Assembly (NCBI GenBank): GCA_902764015.1
Contig: CACWUH010000007.1
Location: 1 to 43,598 of the forward strand
Direction: 5' to 3'
Length of the DNA: 43,598 nucleotides
DNA from: an uncultured Methanobrevibacter sp.
GTDB taxonomy: Archaea; Methanobacteriota; Methanobacteria; Methanobacteriales; Methanobacteriaceae
In this document: in pieces, positions 29,584 to 40,490 of the stretch
How the letters are laid out: every line of letters starts with the position of its first letter
How positions within the stretch are numbered: position 1 is the first letter of the stretch
The notes under the pieces: model-generated
The model's input: only the letters and a program-made list of their open reading frames with translations
Database searches by the model: none
Told to the model about the DNA's origin: nothing
Program-made: the position numbers and the translations under genes

Positions 29584-29589
29584 ATGAGC
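29551..29589 (+). promoter_or_regulatory. TATA box and inverted repeat at the transporter start
   Basis: TTTAAATA at 29551-29558 lies ~30 nt before ATG 29584 with no Shine-Dalgarno between, so the mRNA is probably leaderless or nearly so. GCTCAT (29561-29566) and ATGAGC (29584-29589) are 6-bp inverted arms spanning the initiation region; they may be an operator or chance. Confidence 0.45.
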
Positions 29590-31071
29590 AAAGACCGTGA
29601 AAGCATGAAGGGAACATACTTCATCTCTTCAATTTCAACATCTTCATACCTTGTTGAATATGGAATTTTATCAATTTTTACTTTATTCCTACTTTTTGTT
29701 TTGGATTTCTCGATTCCATTGACATCAAGGGTTTATGCATATTATTACGGCTTTGCATATCTGCTTCCTATCCTAATAGGATACATTTCAGACAAATACC
29801 TGAGCAAATCCGCTGCGTTGACAGTTGGCTTCGTTTCAATGATAATAAGCCAAGTGTTCCTATGGTTTTCTGCCACATTATATGATCCCAACCTTCCTGT
29901 AAGGGACACAATAGTCTTTAATTTGCAAAACATTATGTGCTTTATAGGGTCGATGTTCCTCGCTTGTGGTATGAGTTTCGCATCCCTTTCAATTACTCAT
30001 ATAATCAATTCAATCAATAATGAAGAATCAAGACTTAAGGGATTCTCCATTTATTATCCAATTTTGAATTTTGGAGTATTGATTGGGGTAATCATAACAA
30101 GTGTGGTGGTGGGAAATGAAAATTATGAATTATATGAATGGATTTTCGTTATATTCGCAATTATTCTAACTATCGGGCTGTTCAGCTTTAGATTAGGCAA
30201 AGACAAGTATCTGGTAGACAATGATGGAAACCCTATGAAGGATGACCATTCTAAGGATTCCATAATTGAGGAGTCAAATAAACTTCTCAGGAACATGTCA
30301 CATGAAAGCATATCCAAAATCAAAGATCTAAACTTCAGGCAACGGATAAAGTTTTTTCGTGATTCCCTGACGCCCAATGACAAGGATAAGCTAACTGTCT
30401 TTTTCATATTTTTGATGATTATAATATTTTATAGAATTGCTTTTTCCCAATCCAACATATCCCTTGTCTTTTTTATAAATGATTATGTTCAAAGGGATTT
30501 GGGCTTTTTTACAGTGCCCGTACAAATGTTTGCCCTGCTTAATCCTCTCTTCATTTTAATTTTAGGTCCTATTCTCATTAAAGTCAATGATAAACTGGAC
30601 GAAAAGAAAATCAATCTGGGATTCATAAGAAGGACCATATTGGCCCTGTTGGTCATGGTGTTATGCTTTACTCTGCTAACCGTAATCGGCTATTATATAG
30701 ATATTGGTTCTGTGGATAAGATCGGCCCGATTTGGATTGTTGTTTTTGAATTCTTCATAGCAGTATCGGAACTTCTTTTTTCAATAGCAGGTTATGCCAT
30801 GGTTGGTGATTTGGCACCTGAAAAATATTATTCCTTGTTTTTCGGATTTTTCCTGGCTACAAAGTCTGTTGCAATGTTCCTGTCAGGTTTCATATCATCA
30901 TGTTTCCCAACGGAAGAAAGCTCATCTTTTATTTTTAGCATGCCCATTAACGGACTGATGACCTTTTTCATAACATTTGTAGTTATGAACCTATTCACCG
31001 CTTTAGTTCTAATCATTTATAGAAAAAAATTGCTTGAAAAAATGCATCTTGATGATGTGAATACTGCATAG
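29584..31071 (+). CDS. MFS transporter, POT/peptide-transporter-like
   Basis: 495-residue polytopic membrane protein with about 12-14 hydrophobic segments and a hydrophilic central loop (residues ~205-270). The N-terminus MKGTYFISSISTSSYLVEYG and the first cytoplasmic loop (PILIGYISDKYL then SAALTVGF) match the pattern of proton-dependent oligopeptide (POT/PTR2) transporters. The C-terminal GDLAPEKYYSLFFGFFLATK also fits. It could import di/tripeptides or export a peptide. It is convergent with the NRPS gene and ends 90 bp from it, with no other gene between. Export of, or self-protection from, the NRPS product is therefore a reasonable hypothesis, not a demonstrated function. Confidence 0.8.
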   Translation: MSKDRESMKGTYFISSISTSSYLVEYGILSIFTLFLLFVLDFSIPLTSRVYAYYYGFAYLLPILIGYISDKYLSKSAALTVGFVSMIISQVFLWFSATLYDPNLPVRDTIVFNLQNIMCFIGSMFLACGMSFASLSITHIINSINNEESRLKGFSIYYPILNFGVLIGVIITSVVVGNENYELYEWIFVIFAIILTIGLFSFRLGKDKYLVDNDGNPMKDDHSKDSIIEESNKLLRNMSHESISKIKDLNFRQRIKFFRDSLTPNDKDKLTVFFIFLMIIIFYRIAFSQSNISLVFFINDYVQRDLGFFTVPVQMFALLNPLFILILGPILIKVNDKLDEKKINLGFIRRTILALLVMVLCFTLLTVIGYYIDIGSVDKIGPIWIVVFEFFIAVSELLFSIAGYAMVGDLAPEKYYSLFFGFFLATKSVAMFLSGFISSCFPTEESSSFIFSMPINGLMTFFITFVVMNLFTALVLIIYRKKLLEKMHLDDVNTA

Positions 31072-31160: not shown

Positions 31161-34100
31161 CTATGTGATATCGTCCAAATTCTCATTATCCAGCATTTGT
31201 GTTAGAATTCGAGCATAGAGCCTGACAAATCCCACGGCTATATCGCTTGAAAACATGTCTGCATGATTTATGTGAATGACATACCCGTCATCCAAGTCAT
31301 TGATTACGCAGAAGAATTCGGAAAATGAATCCTTAAAGGTATACTCAAATAGTACAGTATTATTCAAATTGAATTCCTTTTCAAGCAATCTGAAAGGATA
31401 GACATTGCTTATCATGGAATTCAGGACAAGTTCGGAAAAGTTCTCCAGGTATGTTTTAATGTCATCGTTTTTGCAGTCAACCAGTATTGGGGTTGTGCGG
31501 GCAAACATTCCCAGGGAATCCTGAATATAATTTTCATGACGGCCATGCTCCACAAAGTTATAGTAGACCTTAGGGCTTCCAATAAAACGTGAGTAAGCAT
31601 ATGCAAATACTGCATTCAGGAAAGTGCCGATTGTGATGTTATTGCTTCTGGTGAACTCTTCAACATCACTTCGAATTCCTCGGATTGGAAGGGAAACGAT
31701 TCCCCGAGAGCCGTTCGAATCCTCTTGGATTGAATTGACCCCGCCAATGTCTGCCAGTAGTTTGGCATAAAACTCATGTGAAGAGTCATAAGTCTCCTCG
31801 AATTTCGATTCAAAGGAATCACGGCTGGCATAAAGGAAGCCCAAATCAACATCCTTGTTCAAACTGCCCTCAAAGGCATCAATGAAATCATTGTCAATTA
31901 TAATGCATCCTATAGCATCATTAATCACATGATGAATGTCATAGACAATTCGCTTTGATTTTTCATTGTCGATAATGAAGAAACGGGCCAAATGCCTTTC
32001 CAAATCAAAAGGTTTTATGAGGCCAGTGAAATCATCGGTATTGCAGACTTCAACTAGGGGATAGCCATCACAGATTAAAAGGGGCATGTCCCTATCATCT
32101 AGAATACGTCCTTTTAATATAGGGTGCTTTTCAATCAAGCAATGAATTGCATCCTTAATGTCATCAACGGATTTGTCCAAAGGACATTCGACAATCTCCC
32201 AAGTGGAATAGGCGTTGCCCATATCCTGGTCTTTTTCGTTGAAATAGATTTCAAGCTGGGGTTCCGACAGGGCGCAGACAACCTCATTATCGTTAAAAGT
32301 GAAATTTCCAATGAATTCCAATTCAAATCTGATGTTTTCAATGAATTCTGTGAGATTATCTGCTATATATGTGCCTTTCGGATAATTGCCGCTAATGTAA
32401 TAGGAATCATCCTCGCGATTTATGTTGAAAACAATCCCGTATGTGTCCGCATCCTGTAAATCATCCTGAATCAAATCATGATTGACTGATTTGAACAGTT
32501 CATCTTCAAAAGCAAATTCCGTGCTTAGGAAATTGAATGTGACGGGGCAGTGCCTGTACTCCAATTCATTGGTGATGTAGATTAATGAGGCATAATTCAA
32601 ACCCAAATTTTTAACATCGCCGAATGCGGTTTTAATTTTATAAACGTCCCTTACAATGGAAACATCATCATTATCATTGCATATATCGACAGGTACAGGA
32701 TACTGGCTGGTAAACCACCCTACGGTTCTGAAAAGATTTGCAAGACTGTCATCACGTCCATATGATTCCCGATTGAAAATTATATCTTTCCCATAAGTCT
32801 TTTTATATGCACGTGCGATAGCTAATGCCCAATATTCCTCTTCTGAAAGCATCAATAAATTATCGGCGTCATATCCTACCTTAACATTGAAACGGAATCC
32901 CTTTGATTTTCCCCTAATCTGTGAATCATCCAATAGTCCGTTGACTTCAGTCCAATGCAATTTCTCTTCTTCAGATATGTTGTCAACCAATCCCCTTACA
33001 TCTTCAACCCAGTCCCTATAGGAATATGGTCTTGTGAGTTCAATATGCTCATCATTCGAGTCATGATAAGTTTCCTTTATTGATAATTCATTGCCTTCGA
33101 TAATCTCTGGGGAAATGTCCTGTGTATTTTCGATATTCTGAGCAATCCTATACGGTGTTCTATAATTCAATATGTCTCTTGCAGGACATGTTATGCCGTT
33201 TTTGTTGAGCAATGAAATTACGCGAATCGCCGTGATGGAATCTCCGCCGAGGTCAATGAAGTCATCGTTTAATCCAATGGTGCCCTGATTAAACACGGCC
33301 TTGAATGCATCCGCAACCATCTTTTCCACTGGATTTGTGGGAGCAACATAATCAACAAAATTATCGCCATGATCTTCATTGCCATAAACACCTTTGGAAT
33401 TATCGCCCGGACTTATGGTGGAGAATGCTTTCAGGTCCTCGTCGCTGCAATAGTCAATATCGGCGAGCATCTCCCTATCCAACATCTGATTTAAAATTTC
33501 GGCATACGCTTTAGCAAAACTGATTATGGTTTTCCTTGAGAACTTATCTGAATGTTGTATCCCAACAGCATAACCATCATCCAAATCATTAACGACACAT
33601 AGCAAATCGGAAATGGAATCTGTGATGTTTTCGCTTGCAATAATGCCTTCATTTAAACTGGAGACATCATTGTAATCTAAATTATACTCAAACATCACAT
33701 CATTGTTCAAATTGAATTCGGAAGCAAGCTCCATGAATGGATAAACATCATTCAACATGGAAGATAATGCCAAATCTGAAAAATAGCTCAAGTATCCCTT
33801 GATGAAATCATTTTTGCAATCCACTAAAATAGGAACCGTTCGAGCGAACATCCCCACTGCATTTCGGGCATAATCCTCGTGTCGCCCATGTTCAGTGAAA
33901 TTGAAGTAAACTTTCTTGCTGCCTAAAAAACGCGAATATGTATAGGCAAAAGCGGCATTTAAGAAAATCCCAGCAGTTATGCCATTGGCGCTGGCGAACT
34001 CTTCAACACGGCTCTTGATGCCTTGGATAGGTAGGAAAACAATGCCTTCACAGCCTTCAGAATCATTCGGCAATTGCTTTGCTTCATCGATATCGCTCAA

Positions 34101-37100
34101 GTGTCCTGCATAGAATTCGTGGGCTTGCTCATAGCCGGATTCAAATTTGGATTTGAAGGAGTCATAACTGGCATGAACAAAACCCAAATCAATACTGTCA
34201 TCAAGATCATCTTTTAAAGCCTTAATCAAATCATTTTCAACAATTGCGCATCCTCCAGCGTCATTGATGATATGATGCGCCTCAAAAAACACCTTTTTTT
34301 CTTCATTTTTATCAATAATAATAAAACGTGAAAGGGATTTTTCAAAATCGAATGCCTTTACAAGATTGGAAATGTCATCATCGGAATTTATGTCAATGTC
34401 GGGATTGCTGTCACAGATTAAAAGAGGTGAAATGTCATTATCTAAAAGTCTTGCTTTTAAGATAGGGTGTTTGTCAATTACAGATAAGATTGCCCTTTCA
34501 ATCTCTTCAATCGAACTGTCCGAACCGCAATCAATAAGGGCATATGTGGAATATGCAGTATTCTTATTGTTGACTTTCTCATCCAAATAAATTCCCAATT
34601 GGACTTCAGACAACGGACAGATTATTGTGGAATCCTCAACAAAAGAATCTCTCTCCTTTAAAATATCTTTTGCAGAATTTCTAACATCTTCAAGCCAGGA
34701 TTCATATGAATTAGGCTTATTCGGTTTCGTTTTTGTATCTAAAGCCAAATGAGTGTAGATATATGTCAAATCATCCAATAAAATGCTCCAGCTTACCCCG
34801 TCCACAATCAGATGATGAATGACAAAGACAAGATAACACTTATCTTCAAAGCGAACCAAACTGACATCCGCCAGATTATTGAAAACATCAAGCGAGTCTT
34901 TGGCTTTCCGGATGATTTTTGCAATGCCCTCATCAAAATCACCGTTTATCTCATATTCGTTGATTTCGCAAATCTTGGTATTCAGCGGCAATATTTCCTG
35001 CACATATCTGCCGTCTTTAACTTTGAATCTCGCCCTCAGCATGTCATGCAGATTCGTTAATTCATCCAAAGCAGCCTGCAGGATGGCGATATCCAAATCG
35101 GCTGCAGATTCCAAAACAAATTCTTGTGTGAAATCATTCCGGTTTATCTGATCAAAGAAATAATCTTGAATCGGAAGCAAATCAAAAACGCCTTCGACAT
35201 GGTCGTATGACTCTTCAAATCCATCTCCCGCATTCTGGGCAATGAGATATGGAGTCTTGTAATTTAAAATATCACTTGGATTACATAGGATTCCTTCATT
35301 TTGAAGCAGGAAGACTATGCGTATGGCCTTAATGGAATCTCCGCCCAAACGATAAAAGTTATCATTGATTCCAACCCGTTTTACATCCAGAACATTTTCC
35401 CATACTTTAACAATCGCCTCTTCAACGGCATTGGTTGGTGGGGCATATTTGTATTTGGCAACTTTAGGATGAGGCAGTCTTTTAATATCAATCTTTCCGT
35501 TGTTGTTTAGCGGAATGGAGTCAATCTGCATTATTGAAGAGGGCACCATAAACGGAAGCAAAACATTTCCCAAATCATTCAATATCTCATCGGTGTCAAT
35601 GACATCATCACTGACTATGTATGAATACAATTGCGTATTTCCCGAATTCGATACTGTAACGGCCTGGATTATATTCCCATTTCTCTCGATTTGCCTGTTG
35701 ATTTCATCCACTTCAATCCTTTGGCCATTGATTTTGATTTGAGTGTCTTTTCTTCCGATGAAATTTATTTCCCCATCACTGTCAAGATATGCCAGATCTC
35801 CAGTGCAGTACAATGTGCCTTCATCAAATGGATTTTCGATGAAATGCCTGTTTGTTTCATCAGTATTCTTTAAATAACCATCAGCCACCTGTTTTCCGCC
35901 AATGCACAATTCTCCGGGAATGCCTATTGGACACAACTGTCTTTCATCATTTAAAATATAAATTTGAGTATTCACATTGGCTTTTCCAATTGTGATTTTA
36001 TCATATAGGACTCTTTTAATGCTTGCGAATATTGTTGCTTCGCAAGGCCCATATGCATTGTAAATGATAGGATTGTAATTTTTTCGAATTTCGGCTACAA
36101 GGCCGTCATTTAGTGCTTCCCCTGCAAGTATCAGCATCCCCACATTTTCCATAATCCTTTCAAAATTTGGAAGCGTTAAAAACATTTTCAATTTGGCCGG
36201 AACCGTATTGATAATTGAATTCTGATTCAATACGTCTTCAGGAATTCCTGAAAAGTCATAATTCTCATCGATTACATGCAGCCGTATGCCATTCAGCATT
36301 GAAAAGATAATCTCAAAAACCGATGTGTCGAATCCGATATTTGTCGTGTGGTAAAAAATCCTGCTGTTCTTATCATAAAATTGCTTTTTAGCGCTGATCA
36401 GGAAGTTTTCAACATTTTCATGAGTGATTTGCACACCTTTTGGGACTCCTGTAGTTCCCGAAGTATGAAGTATGCACAGCTTGCCTTGAGAGGACGATTC
36501 TAATTCGCCGTAATCATAATCATATAATGATTCTTGGCTCAAATCAACAATGTTGACATCATCCATGTCCAAATCAAGATTTGTCAACACGACTTTGGCG
36601 CCAACCTCATCAATGATGTGTCTTATCCTTCCCTCTGGAGCCGATGGGTTGACTGGGACATAAACGGCATTCAGTTTCAAAATGCTGTAGAATCCCAAAA
36701 CAGATTCCACGCTGCGGTTAGCTATCAATACGATATTGTCCTGCTTCTCGACGGCGAAATTGTCCTTCAGATAATTTGCCAGGCTGTTGGTTTTCAAATC
36801 AAAATCATTATAGCTTAAAGAAGATTCGCAATCAGACAAAATAGTCATTGTAGGGTTTTTAGCAATTTGCTCTTTCAATGCTGTCAGTATTGAATCATAT
36901 TTCAAATCCTCCTTAACGCCGGCCATTTCCATTATCCTTTCCCGCTCGCCAGATGATAGGATATCAATGTCATCAATTTTCCTGCCCATATTTTCACCGA
37001 TGCCATCAATCAAATTGACATAATGGTCCAGTAATCCTTTGATCTTTTCAAATGAATACAAATCACTATTATAATCGAATTCGACAGTCAAATCGGATGA

Positions 37101-40100
37101 GCTATTCTTTATTGTGCATGTCAAATCAAATTTGGTTTCGTCCCACTTCAAATCATCGTCAAATTCATCTGCAGTGTTCTGTATAAAGGCTATGCTGAAG
37201 AGAGGATTGAATGAATTGTTGGTTGGCATATTATGGTCTTCAATTATCTGCTCGATTGAATAGTCCTGATTGGCAAATAAGTTGGCCAGTTCCTCTTCGG
37301 TTTTCATTAATGTCTCTTTTAGGGTATCTCTGCCACATATCGTCTGTGCAAATGGCAGCGTATTGACAAACATTCCCAAAGTCTTTTTCAAAACGGGGTG
37401 CGTTCTTCCACTTGTTACGGTTCCGATTTGAATGTTCGATTCGTCTGTGTATTTGTGAAGCAAAACACAGAATTGCAGAAGCAGTAATTTGTAAACTGTG
37501 GTATTGTTGTTCCTTGCCTGCTTTTCTATAATTTCATTATCCAGATTGTATGCAATTTTGCTTCCGTTGAAAGTCATGTTCAGTGGCCTTTCAAAATCGC
37601 TCATCAGCACTGTTCCATATTCTGAAAGTTTTCTGTTTTTCCAGTAATCCGCTTCCTTGGCCTGCTGACTCTTAACCCAGAATGCATAATCCTTATACTG
37701 GATTTCGTTTGTCGTGAATGGTTCATCATTGTAGGCCTTTTTAATTTTGTCGTATAGTAAATCGTTGCTTATCTGATCGCCTATCGCATGGTGCATGTCC
37801 CTGAAGATATAGGTTTCGCCGTTGAATTCAATGGCCTTTATCCTAAGCAGAGGGTCCGTTTCAAGTCTGAACGGCTGAATGTTTTGCACCATGACTTCAT
37901 AAATGTCTTCATTTTCTTCAAGCTTTATTGAATCCACCTTGATTGGGCGCTCTTTGTGAATCTTTTGTATGTATTTGCCATCTTCAACATGAAGCGAAGT
38001 TCTAAGTATCTCTTCAGCCTCAATTACCTTATTGATTGCATCTTCCAGCCTGCCGATGTCAATGGATTTCTTAAGCCGGACTACATTTGGCAGATTGTAA
38101 TTGGTTAAATCAGGATTTTTACGATAAAGGACATACAGCCTCTCCTGTTGGGATGACATTGGATATTTGCCTGTGACTGATGGCGTGGCCTTTTCTATCT
38201 CATCGGTTGAGGCATTACCCTCGATTAGCTTTGACAGTTTTCTGACGGTAGGATTGTTCATCAGGTCAATGTGTTTCAAGTTTATGTTGAACTCATGGTA
38301 TATGTCTGAATTCAGCTTCATCAATGTGAGGGAAGTAAAACCAAGCTTAAATAGATTATCGGTGACTCCGAAACTGTCATGGTTTAGGATATCCCTGCAG
38401 AAATCGTAAATGCCTTTCTCCAAATCATTTGCCGCTTTCACATTTTCCGTATCCGTCGCCGGTTTTGGCAGCATCTTTCTGTCTATCTTTCCGCTTGGGG
38501 TTTCCGGAAAGCCATCCAGCTGGATGATGAATGTCGGAACCATATATTCGGACAGGAATCTTTCCAGATGTTTCCTTAAATCATCAATGTCAACAGGGCT
38601 TTCGCAGGTGAAATATGCACATAGATGATTTTCATTATTTATTTCATGAATCATGACAACGGCATTATTGATTTCACCATATCTTACCATCACCTGTTCG
38701 ATTTCTTCAGGATCAACCCTTTGACCCCTCAGTTTGATTTGATTGTCGATTCTTCCCTTGATTATCATCTCTCCTGAAGGAAGTTCAATCGCATAATCAC
38801 CGGACTTGTAATAGGGAAGCCCGTTTAAGGAAATGAACACCTCTTTAGTTTTTTCCTCCATATTATAATATCCCTTGCTTACACCAATTCCGCCAATATA
38901 CAGTTGCCCTATCACTCCATAAGGCAGAAGCTTGTCATCGATGTCCCTTACATCAGTGACATAATTGAAAAGCGCTTTTCCGTTGGTGATGAAATCGGGA
39001 TTCAGAATCTTTTTGCTGTTTGAGGTCAGGCTGGTTTCCAGAGGGCCGTAACCGTTATAGATTTCAATGTCTGCACATTCCTTAATCGAATCATAGATGT
39101 TTCTTGTAAACTGCTCTCCTCCACAGCCAATTCCTTTAAAGTGTCTTATTGCCGATTTGAACTCTGGAACCTGCAGATATGAAAGCAGCCTTGAAGGAGT
39201 CAGATTTACAAATTCCGGTCTTGTCTCTTCAAGCAGATGGGCCAAAAGAACAATATCTCTGATTTCATCATCGTTTGCAAAGACCAGCTCAATGTCATTT
39301 GTCATGGAAAGCAGAATGTCCTCTTCGGAAATGTCAAATGATATCGAAGCGATTGACAGCAATCTCCTGTAGTTGTTCTTGATATGGGTGGCAGTCAGAT
39401 TGGATATTCCGCAATGGGTTGAGATAACGCCCTTCGGATTTCCCGTTGAACCGGAGGTATAAAGAAGAAAAATAGGGTCATCTGCCTTCAGGTCAACTTC
39501 GGGAAATCCTGCATCCCCCTCATCAATCAGGTCCTGGGGGTCGATTGCCCCATCAAGGGATTGTCTTGTAATGATGTATTCTGAATCGCTGTTTTTTCGA
39601 ATATAATTTATCCTTTCTGGAGGGAAGTTCATATCCAATGGAATGGCTACACATCCCGCTTTGATGATTCCCAAAAATGTGGTGATGAGGGTCTTGTCCC
39701 TGGCAAGCATGAGTGAAATCGTGCTGCCCTTTTCGATTCCCCTATTTATCAGTGCATTGGCTATTCTGTTTGCCTCATCATTGACCTGCTTGAAGGTATA
39801 CTCTTTACCGCAGGTGATTAAGGCAACTTTTTCGGGGGTCTTGTTGGCCTGATTTTCCAATAGTTCATTAACCAGGGGGCTTCTTTTGAGTTCGTATTTT
39901 ATGGGTGGCTTTTCATCCCTGAGTGCGATATCCTCAACCTTAAGATTGCCGATTTCGCAAGTGACAAATTGGTTTAAAACCCTTTTGATGCTCCTTAAAA
40001 ATGAGTATGCATATGATGAAGTGTATTTGTTGGCATCGAACCTTAGTTTCAAGAGATATTGCCTGGATGATTCGTCGATAATCAGTGAAGTGCTGGAATC

Positions 40101-40490
40101 ATCGTCTTTCAAATCATTATAAACATAATTGAAATGGTCTTGATTGGCCAATTCCCTTAACGATTCATCATTACTCTTCGGATTGGAAAAATAATCGCAG
40201 AGATTGGCGATATAATCAATAACACTTCTTTTTCTGTTTTCATCATTGAATTTCAACGGAACTTCAACGGATTTTCCATTGATTCTGGACTTTGTTTTGA
40301 TGAAGATTTGGGTGCTGTTGGCATATTTTGTCAATGTGATGCATGTGGCTGCCAAAAACAAAAGATTCTGGTCTAAATCATGTTTTGAAGTCAAATCGTC
40401 AATTTTTGATTTGATTATTGAAATGTATACATATTCCATTTTGGAGATGTTATCATCATTTTTATTAAACATGAGAACTGAAGGCTGCAT
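31161..40490 (-). CDS. Nonribosomal peptide synthetase with rearranged modules
   Basis: 3109-residue multidomain synthetase. Approximate order: residues 1-205, C-terminal half of a C domain lacking HHxxxDG; A1 205-690 (core LLYTSGSTGNPKG, Lys ~667); PCP1, Ser720 (LGFTSL); C1, HHAIGDQ at 900-906; A2 1225-1680 (ILHTSGTTGVPKG); PCP2, Ser1719 (LGGDSI); N-half of an E domain (PIQDYFFDQ, HHLIVDGVSW at 1892-1901); C2, HHIINDA at 2072; PCP3, Ser2418 (LGGDSI); C-half of an E domain (Glu2575 in RESYGRDD, TVGWFTSQYPVPV at 2589-2601); C3, HHVINDA at 2853. There is no thioesterase or reductase, and PCP3 has no A domain. Carriers need a phosphopantetheinyl transferase encoded elsewhere. Met7 (ATG 40472) is an alternative start, given the TATA box at 40499-40510. 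NRPS genes are known in Methanobrevibacter and are probably of bacterial origin. The product is unknown. Confidence 0.93.
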   Translation of the reverse strand: MQPSVLMFNKNDDNISKMEYVYISIIKSKIDDLTSKHDLDQNLLFLAATCITLTKYANSTQIFIKTKSRINGKSVEVPLKFNDENRKRSVIDYIANLCDYFSNPKSNDESLRELANQDHFNYVYNDLKDDDSSTSLIIDESSRQYLLKLRFDANKYTSSYAYSFLRSIKRVLNQFVTCEIGNLKVEDIALRDEKPPIKYELKRSPLVNELLENQANKTPEKVALITCGKEYTFKQVNDEANRIANALINRGIEKGSTISLMLARDKTLITTFLGIIKAGCVAIPLDMNFPPERINYIRKNSDSEYIITRQSLDGAIDPQDLIDEGDAGFPEVDLKADDPIFLLYTSGSTGNPKGVISTHCGISNLTATHIKNNYRRLLSIASISFDISEEDILLSMTNDIELVFANDDEIRDIVLLAHLLEETRPEFVNLTPSRLLSYLQVPEFKSAIRHFKGIGCGGEQFTRNIYDSIKECADIEIYNGYGPLETSLTSNSKKILNPDFITNGKALFNYVTDVRDIDDKLLPYGVIGQLYIGGIGVSKGYYNMEEKTKEVFISLNGLPYYKSGDYAIELPSGEMIIKGRIDNQIKLRGQRVDPEEIEQVMVRYGEINNAVVMIHEINNENHLCAYFTCESPVDIDDLRKHLERFLSEYMVPTFIIQLDGFPETPSGKIDRKMLPKPATDTENVKAANDLEKGIYDFCRDILNHDSFGVTDNLFKLGFTSLTLMKLNSDIYHEFNINLKHIDLMNNPTVRKLSKLIEGNASTDEIEKATPSVTGKYPMSSQQERLYVLYRKNPDLTNYNLPNVVRLKKSIDIGRLEDAINKVIEAEEILRTSLHVEDGKYIQKIHKERPIKVDSIKLEENEDIYEVMVQNIQPFRLETDPLLRIKAIEFNGETYIFRDMHHAIGDQISNDLLYDKIKKAYNDEPFTTNEIQYKDYAFWVKSQQAKEADYWKNRKLSEYGTVLMSDFERPLNMTFNGSKIAYNLDNEIIEKQARNNNTTVYKLLLLQFCVLLHKYTDESNIQIGTVTSGRTHPVLKKTLGMFVNTLPFAQTICGRDTLKETLMKTEEELANLFANQDYSIEQIIEDHNMPTNNSFNPLFSIAFIQNTADEFDDDLKWDETKFDLTCTIKNSSSDLTVEFDYNSDLYSFEKIKGLLDHYVNLIDGIGENMGRKIDDIDILSSGERERIMEMAGVKEDLKYDSILTALKEQIAKNPTMTILSDCESSLSYNDFDLKTNSLANYLKDNFAVEKQDNIVLIANRSVESVLGFYSILKLNAVYVPVNPSAPEGRIRHIIDEVGAKVVLTNLDLDMDDVNIVDLSQESLYDYDYGELESSSQGKLCILHTSGTTGVPKGVQITHENVENFLISAKKQFYDKNSRIFYHTTNIGFDTSVFEIIFSMLNGIRLHVIDENYDFSGIPEDVLNQNSIINTVPAKLKMFLTLPNFERIMENVGMLILAGEALNDGLVAEIRKNYNPIIYNAYGPCEATIFASIKRVLYDKITIGKANVNTQIYILNDERQLCPIGIPGELCIGGKQVADGYLKNTDETNRHFIENPFDEGTLYCTGDLAYLDSDGEINFIGRKDTQIKINGQRIEVDEINRQIERNGNIIQAVTVSNSGNTQLYSYIVSDDVIDTDEILNDLGNVLLPFMVPSSIMQIDSIPLNNNGKIDIKRLPHPKVAKYKYAPPTNAVEEAIVKVWENVLDVKRVGINDNFYRLGGDSIKAIRIVFLLQNEGILCNPSDILNYKTPYLIAQNAGDGFEESYDHVEGVFDLLPIQDYFFDQINRNDFTQEFVLESAADLDIAILQAALDELTNLHDMLRARFKVKDGRYVQEILPLNTKICEINEYEINGDFDEGIAKIIRKAKDSLDVFNNLADVSLVRFEDKCYLVFVIHHLIVDGVSWSILLDDLTYIYTHLALDTKTKPNKPNSYESWLEDVRNSAKDILKERDSFVEDSTIICPLSEVQLGIYLDEKVNNKNTAYSTYALIDCGSDSSIEEIERAILSVIDKHPILKARLLDNDISPLLICDSNPDIDINSDDDISNLVKAFDFEKSLSRFIIIDKNEEKKVFFEAHHIINDAGGCAIVENDLIKALKDDLDDSIDLGFVHASYDSFKSKFESGYEQAHEFYAGHLSDIDEAKQLPNDSEGCEGIVFLPIQGIKSRVEEFASANGITAGIFLNAAFAYTYSRFLGSKKVYFNFTEHGRHEDYARNAVGMFARTVPILVDCKNDFIKGYLSYFSDLALSSMLNDVYPFMELASEFNLNNDVMFEYNLDYNDVSSLNEGIIASENITDSISDLLCVVNDLDDGYAVGIQHSDKFSRKTIISFAKAYAEILNQMLDREMLADIDYCSDEDLKAFSTISPGDNSKGVYGNEDHGDNFVDYVAPTNPVEKMVADAFKAVFNQGTIGLNDDFIDLGGDSITAIRVISLLNKNGITCPARDILNYRTPYRIAQNIENTQDISPEIIEGNELSIKETYHDSNDEHIELTRPYSYRDWVEDVRGLVDNISEEEKLHWTEVNGLLDDSQIRGKSKGFRFNVKVGYDADNLLMLSEEEYWALAIARAYKKTYGKDIIFNRESYGRDDSLANLFRTVGWFTSQYPVPVDICNDNDDVSIVRDVYKIKTAFGDVKNLGLNYASLIYITNELEYRHCPVTFNFLSTEFAFEDELFKSVNHDLIQDDLQDADTYGIVFNINREDDSYYISGNYPKGTYIADNLTEFIENIRFELEFIGNFTFNDNEVVCALSEPQLEIYFNEKDQDMGNAYSTWEIVECPLDKSVDDIKDAIHCLIEKHPILKGRILDDRDMPLLICDGYPLVEVCNTDDFTGLIKPFDLERHLARFFIIDNEKSKRIVYDIHHVINDAIGCIIIDNDFIDAFEGSLNKDVDLGFLYASRDSFESKFEETYDSSHEFYAKLLADIGGVNSIQEDSNGSRGIVSLPIRGIRSDVEEFTRSNNITIGTFLNAVFAYAYSRFIGSPKVYYNFVEHGRHENYIQDSLGMFARTTPILVDCKNDDIKTYLENFSELVLNSMISNVYPFRLLEKEFNLNNTVLFEYTFKDSFSEFFCVINDLDDGYVIHINHADMFSSDIAVGFVRLYARILTQMLDNENLDDIT
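32316..33029 (-). other. C-terminal half of an epimerization domain (inside the NRPS)
   Basis: Residues ~2488-2725, after PCP3. It opens with SYRDWVEDVR (Trp2494), the same motif at which the N-half stops. It continues with the E-type motifs EEYWALAIARAY (E3), RESYGRDD (E4, Glu2575), TVGWFTSQYPVPV (E5), NLGLNYASLIYI (E6-like) and FNFLS (E7-like). It contains no HHxxxDG of its own. Confidence 0.8.
34650..35195 (-). other. N-terminal half of an epimerization domain (inside the NRPS)
   Basis: Residues ~1766-1945, directly after PCP2. Motifs PIQDYFFDQ (E1) and HHLIVDGVSWSILLDDL (E2) are typical of epimerization rather than condensation domains. The half ends at SYESWLEDVR (Trp1932), after which a new C domain begins at once (ICPLSEVQLGIYLDE). 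Confidence 0.8.

Follow-up and report, generated by a model that had tools for sequence, protein, structure and literature searches.

Two epimerization-domain lobes on either side of a condensation-carrier block in a Methanobrevibacter nonribosomal peptide synthetase: a candidate discontinuous, chimeric E domain

To our knowledge, the epimerization (E) domains of nonribosomal peptide synthetases (NRPSs) are continuous. The window analyzed here, 43,598 nucleotides of an uncultured Methanobrevibacter sp. (contig CACWUH010000007.1), holds a single open frame of 3109 aa at 31161-40490 on the minus strand that encodes an archaeal NRPS in which the N-terminal lobe (EN) and the C-terminal lobe (EC) of an E domain stand apart, which raises the questions of how the two lobes were separated and whether they still act as one domain. 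We favor, with a probability of about 0.57, an NRPS with a discontinuous, chimeric E domain, the lobes of which stem from two tandem E domains and would assemble around the intervening condensation (C) domain C2 and carrier (T) domain T3. The features of the locus are as follows, with residue numbers according to the 3109-aa protein.

31161..40490, minus strand: NRPS gene, 3109 aa (open frame, Pfam, lobe profiles)
39906..40490, minus strand: NtC, a lone condensation-domain C-terminal lobe, probably a relic, residues 1-195 (hhalign, dN/dS)
38457..39842, minus strand: A1, adenylation (A) domain, residues 217-678 (Pfam, lobe profiles)
38214..38411, minus strand: T1/PCP1, residues 694-759, LGFTSL (profiles, motif)
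36924..38165, minus strand: C1, condensation domain, residues 776-1189 (Pfam, lobe profiles)
35481..36869, minus strand: A2, adenylation domain, residues 1208-1670 (Pfam, lobe profiles)
35232..35447, minus strand: T2/PCP2, residues 1682-1753, LGGDSI, with native spacing to EN (profiles, motif)
34662..35186, minus strand: EN, N-terminal lobe of E domain 1, residues 1769-1943 (Pfam, profiles, solved structures, trees)
34788-34817, minus strand: HHLIVDGVSW within EN, residues 1892-1901 (motif)
34656..34718, minus strand: EN-side copy of the interlobe helix, SYESWLEDVR..., residues 1925-1945, decaying (conservation, helix scores, dN/dS)
33426..34625, minus strand: C2, complete condensation domain between the lobes, residues 1956-2355, HHIINDAGG (Pfam, profiles, Foldseek)
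33135..33350, minus strand: T3/PCP3, residues 2381-2452, LGGDSI, without an A domain of its own (profiles, motif)
33042..33134, minus strand: T3-EC linker, residues 2453-2483, a fast-evolving putative scar of the lost E2 N-lobe (helix scores, dN/dS)
32310..33029, minus strand: EC, C-terminal lobe of E domain 2, residues 2488-2727, with SYRDWVEDVR kept, Glu2575 in NRESYGRD, and GWFTSQYP (Pfam, profiles, solved structures, trees)
31167..32282, minus strand: C3, terminal condensation domain, residues 2737-3108, HHVINDAIG, probable release step (Pfam, profiles, motif)
29584..31071, plus strand: POT/MFS-type transporter, convergent neighbor and candidate exporter (conserved adjacency in relatives)

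In the protein, Pfam recognized five Condensation stretches alongside two A domains and three carriers, and lobe-level profiles built for this analysis gave the order NtC-A1-T1-C1-A2-T2-EN-C2-T3-EC-C3. The core motifs of the C, A, and T domains are intact on one polypeptide, as in a modular (type I) NRPS, and T3 has no A domain in cis. The NtC lobe matched the C-lobe of C1 (hhalign probability 94, E-value 1.4e-7), and a lone C-lobe under relaxed constraint opens this NRPS in all of the relatives in which the N-terminus is represented.

For the region around C2, the Pfam Condensation profile matched in three pieces: profile positions 2-184 only at 34677-35195 (EN), a near-full match (5-435) at 33477-34619 (C2), and positions 265-424 only at 32337-32804 (EC). 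The best solved-structure matches of EN were E domains (bacitracin synthetase 3, PvdL, GrsA, and TycA; E-values to 3e-23), those of EC were E domains exclusively, and Glu2575 aligned with the Glu of the 'EGHGRE' motif of GrsA and TycA. These results indicate that the two halves are of the E type, and a C-type identity is ruled out. The sequence-only reading, which had placed an E1/E2-type half before C2 and an E3-E7-type half after PCP3 and had taken both to be of epimerization rather than condensation type, was thus borne out by the profile ranges and the structures. Its motif positions also proved exact, namely HHLIVDGVSW at 1892-1901, Glu2575 (NRESYGRD at 2573), GWFTSQYP at 2591, and SYxxWxEDVR at both junctions, as SYESWLEDVR at 1928-1937 (Trp1932) and SYRDWVEDVR at 2490-2499 (Trp2494).

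The canonical E domains that gave the best matches (TycA, 2xhg; GrsA, 5isw; PvdL-E2; BacC) share with the window's lobes both HHxxxDG, found in the E-type sequence of EN, and the catalytic Glu motif, found in EC as Glu2575 in an EGHGRE-like context together with GWFTSQYP. Whereas the canonical domain is continuous, EN ends at residue 1943 and EC starts at residue 2488, and the 544 residues between them, previously put at about 545, comprise the full C domain C2 and the carrier T3. The outer junctions, T2-EN and EC-C3, are spaced as in an intact T-E-C. AlphaFold2 folded the lobes with either unpaired lobe rows (pLDDT 51, pTM 0.37) or paired rows of intact E domains (pLDDT 72.5, pTM 0.47), values that in both models leave the relative placement of the lobes without confidence. 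A Foldseek search with the second model found C2 to be a complete C domain (TMt about 0.7), the 544-residue gap being outside the expected reach of the search.

Among 139 genomes of the family Methanobacteriaceae, 21 gave any match to an E C-lobe, and comparison of the NRPS homologues extended the layout from the window to seven distinct lineages in nine genomes, the window included. The other six lineages are L009 (3127 aa), L010 (a contig fragment), L011/L012/L052 (2400 aa; nearly identical to each other and counted as one), L055 (3126 aa), L056 (the gene lying in two frames through one frameshift), and L110 (genus g6, outside Methanobrevibacter; 3629 aa), the last having the order T2-EN-C2-A3-T3-EC-C3, with a complete C-A-T module separating the lobes. 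The identity of the relatives to the window's NRPS ranges from 83-89% to 65-67%, the lowest figures being those of the EC half. Since the split recurs in independent assemblies, in a genome assembled as one contig of 2.54 Mb (L052, G004), and in a second genus, an assembly artefact is ruled out. No precedent for a split, interrupted, or truncated E domain was found in the literature searched, which covered few subscription journals.

Two variations among the relatives were also seen. The 2400-aa variants (L011, 2401-9603; L012, 4418-11620; L052) have lost A1-T1 and the N-lobe of C1, so that two C-lobes (NtC-C1c) stand in a row before A2. In L110, C2 (residues ~1970-2371) reads HYIIIDA in place of HHxxxD, with a Tyr replacing the second His, and may be inactive, whereas A3 and T3 look intact.

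Both catalytic residues, His1893 in EN and Glu2575 in EC, are kept in the window, and the split forms of the genus show no variation in HHLIVDGVSW or NRESYGRD, the corresponding pair in L110 being HHLIIDGISW/NRESYGRD. Rows of about 53% identity (e.g., C3 in L010) were left out of the pairwise dN/dS comparison as cross-paralogue matches. EN gave 0.11-0.15 in the close comparisons that involve the window and 0.28 in L009-L010, and EC gave 0.10-0.22, both lobes changing at a pace as slow as that of the intact A2 domain (0.14-0.20), whereas NtC stood at 0.32-0.47. With this relaxed constraint, NtC is probably a relic and provides an internal control for a half domain that has little to do. For the columns conserved among 21 intact E domains, the split EC keeps 95-97%, compared to a leave-one-out median of 96% for the intact domains, and the split EN keeps 79-90%, with nearly all of the lost positions belonging to its own junction helix on the EN side. 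When the helices were scored against those of intact E domains, the EC-side helix proved to be retained in all seven lineages (33-63 bits, against an intact median of 60) and the EN-side helix, at -17 to 23, to be decayed in all of them. In the window clade, the lobe bodies had dN/dS values of 0.17 (EN) and 0.14 (EC), the EC helix 0.18, the EN helix with its scar 0.36, and the T3-EC linker 0.63.

A single E domain composed of EN and EC would call for one linker helix, conserved bodies of both lobes, and linkers free to vary, and the pattern seen favors such a domain, although lobes that fold but stay separate would likewise be expected to retain the EC-side helix and lose the EN-side one. The argument of the sequence-only reading that the retention of both catalytic parts speaks against simple decay is backed by the dN/dS values and the column conservation, and because of this backing, the present-day function is probably that of one E domain around the block.

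The same data bear on the alternative that survives best, an unlikely one in our estimate, in which the lobes are non-catalytic scaffolds, with EN packing on T2 and EC on C3, and epimerization has been lost. It would be in keeping with the lone lobes retained elsewhere in the family, NtC before A1 and the C1 C-lobe before A2 in the 2400-aa variants, and with the effect that the C-lobe of a C domain can have on an adjoining A domain (McyB, PMC11546977). However, scaffolds would hardly account for the two motifs being invariant within the genus and kept in L110, or for EC equaling intact E domains in its retention of the E-conserved columns, and NtC, the sole lone lobe with an inferred scaffold role, evolves under relaxed constraint.

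The origin of the split is indicated by L057 (3950 aa), in which both E domains are complete and the order is NtC-A1-T1-C1-A2-T2-E1-C2-A3-T3-E2-C3. The N-lobe tree places the split EN within the E1 type, away from E2 of L057, and the C-lobe tree joins the split EC to E2 of L057, away from E1. The swapped pairings were rejected by the AU test (EN with E2, p=0.026; EC with E1, p=0.004), and the trees do not all give strong support to a sister relationship between the split lobes and the E domains of L057 (EN unresolved, EC 88/83). Among the other domains, C3 and T2 of the split forms cluster with those of L057, and C2 is closest to C2 of L057; two alignments, in which MAFFT misplaced C-only rows or C-A-T segments, were left out. 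Since EN tracks the E1-type lobes and EC the E2-type lobes, the simplest history is one in which E1 lost its C-lobe and E2 its N-lobe, followed later by the loss of A3. The states would then run from a tandem-E ancestor through the L110 state (lobe losses) to the window state (A3 loss). Placing L057 at the ancestral end would rest on the logic of lobe loss, the root of the gene tree not being resolved, and L057 may itself be of recombinant origin.

The junction sequences agree with this history. Intact E domains have one junction helix, PYPYKxWVEDVKxL, and the split forms have two copies, the SYxxWxEDVR motif at both ends, as would result from a tandem-E ancestor that lost one lobe per E domain. 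Just ahead of EC, L055 has a stretch (DLINIY...NLNGSYSYKKW) that is similar to the end of a second N-lobe (p=0.001 against shuffled sequences), a similarity that is weaker in the window.

The two options left by the sequence-only reading, an insertion into one E domain and the loss of one half from each of two tandem E domains, can thereby be told apart as to origin: the second stands and the first does not. Insertion of a C(-A)-T block into a single E domain, whatever the present function, is improbable. It is what the contiguous E domain of L114 (genus g9) might suggest, in which the same two lobe types adjoin without C2-T3, but the split lobes have their tree partners in different E domains of L057, the junction helix occurs in two copies, the L055 stretch resembles a second N-lobe, and L114 itself nests within the split forms. 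Its EN and EC, 72% and 71% identical to split lobes, branch among those lobes, and the tree of its first 1750 residues places it as sister to the window clade, nested in the split group (97/99 and 100/100). L114 therefore looks like a split form with its lobes rejoined rather than an ancestral one. An in-frame TAA and frameshifts disrupt the gene, so that its contiguous E domain shows the kinship of the lobes, not activity.

In the assembly of L114, L111, and L115 (G097), several NRPS genes are broken by stops or frameshifts, for which pseudogenes and sequencing errors are indistinguishable. The EN and EC lobes of contiguous E domains in other NRPSs (L111, residues 318-721 and 1757-2157) also group with different partners, suggesting that lobe-level recombination may be common in this NRPS family.

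For the working enzyme, the discontinuous E domain that we favor would form by pairing of EN and EC within the same chain into one V-shaped domain, to which EN would contribute His1893 and EC Glu2575. C2-T3 would be looped out at the hinge of the E domain through flexible linkers of about 12 aa before C2, about 25 aa from C2 to T3, and about 35 aa after T3. The rebuilt domain would lie between T2, at the native T-E spacing, and C3, at the native E-C spacing, and would epimerize the residue on T2. Because the outer junctions are spaced as in an ordinary T-E-C, the likeliest enzyme would be A2-T2-E-C3 with C2-T3 looped out. More speculatively, C2 could hand the chain to T3, which would serve as a relay or be charged by a different A domain, and product release could fall to C3. 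Parts of the assembly line may be idle, since T3 lacks an A domain and C2 of L110 has lost its second His. That half-losses were rescued by lobe complementation, with lobes of two ancestral E domains together restoring one active site that encloses an elongation module (C-A-T in one genus and C-T in another), is rated nearly as probable as the main reading, slightly above even.

Pairing in trans, between EN and EC of two chains in a dimer, or pairing that is only transient, is improbable; one E domain might then serve both T2 and T3. EN follows T2 and EC follows T3, so that the lobes are tethered to different carriers, and the linker before EC is long and fast-evolving; nothing specific stands against this arrangement; pairing in cis requires no oligomer. 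A degenerating assembly line with a dead split E domain is very improbable and already disfavored by the dN/dS values, because, despite the loss of A3 in the window clade and of A1-T1 and the C1 N-lobe in L011/L012/L052, the frameshift in L056, and the broken gene of L114, the frames are open in 6/7 lineages (L010, a contig fragment, among them; L056 being the frameshifted one), both lobes are under strong purifying selection down to 66% identity, and the POT transporter neighbor is conserved.

Several known systems resemble parts of this arrangement. Interrupted A domains (TioS/TioN, with an internal methyltransferase; PMC8949500) are likewise single NRPS domains that host catalytic domains, but there an auxiliary domain was inserted into a loop of the A domain between a8 and a9, whereas in the split forms C-T (or C-A-T) stands between E lobes and the split arose through lobe loss. 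An interrupted NRPS domain has a single ancestral host; the lobes here derive from two E domains. The PchE-type inserted epimerase, as summarized in PMC8807600, shares an epimerase and an unusual nesting within one NRPS, with the epimerase as the guest rather than, as in the window, the host. Lobes of C domains tolerate exchange, as shown by the XUC exchange units (PMC11546977), in which, as in the window, lobes of different C-family domains are joined at the interlobe linker; those units are engineered and contiguous, whereas the window's lobes are natural and kept apart. Module 9 of SyrE, a C-T without an A domain, is like C2-T3 but is loaded by the dedicated SyrB1 (PMC8949500), and no dedicated A-T partner was identified for T3. 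Reviews cover interrupted A domains (PMC8949500) and lobe exchange in engineering (PMC11546977), and Methanobrevibacter NRPSs have been known since 2010 (PMC2812497), in an account whose consulted passages make no mention of a split E domain.

If the lobes do assemble, two different domains would each have supplied one half of a natural NRPS catalytic domain that hosts a module, and related methanogens would still carry its intact, intermediate, and apparently rejoined forms. The lobes of the C/E fold would then be evolutionary units, which bears on the reasons for the success of lobe-level exchange in engineered NRPSs, and the locus would offer a ready system for testing cis complementation. 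The annotation and product prediction of rumen methanogen NRPSs would also be corrected, to one E domain rather than two or none.

The window's genome (G000) has at least two more NRPS genes, a 4282-aa ORF on C17 and a 1703-aa ORF on C98, in which no E domains were detected. It also encodes a phosphopantetheinyl transferase (C17:20205). In every relative in which the flank is represented, the NRPS has a POT-family transporter as its neighbor, with POT/MFS transporters adjoining it in L009, L011, L012, L052, L055, L056, L057, and L110 (55-85%) and in L114 (44%). The transporter neighbor and the phosphopantetheinyl transferase are consistent with a working pathway. In L009, the transporter is present in two tandem POT/MFS copies.
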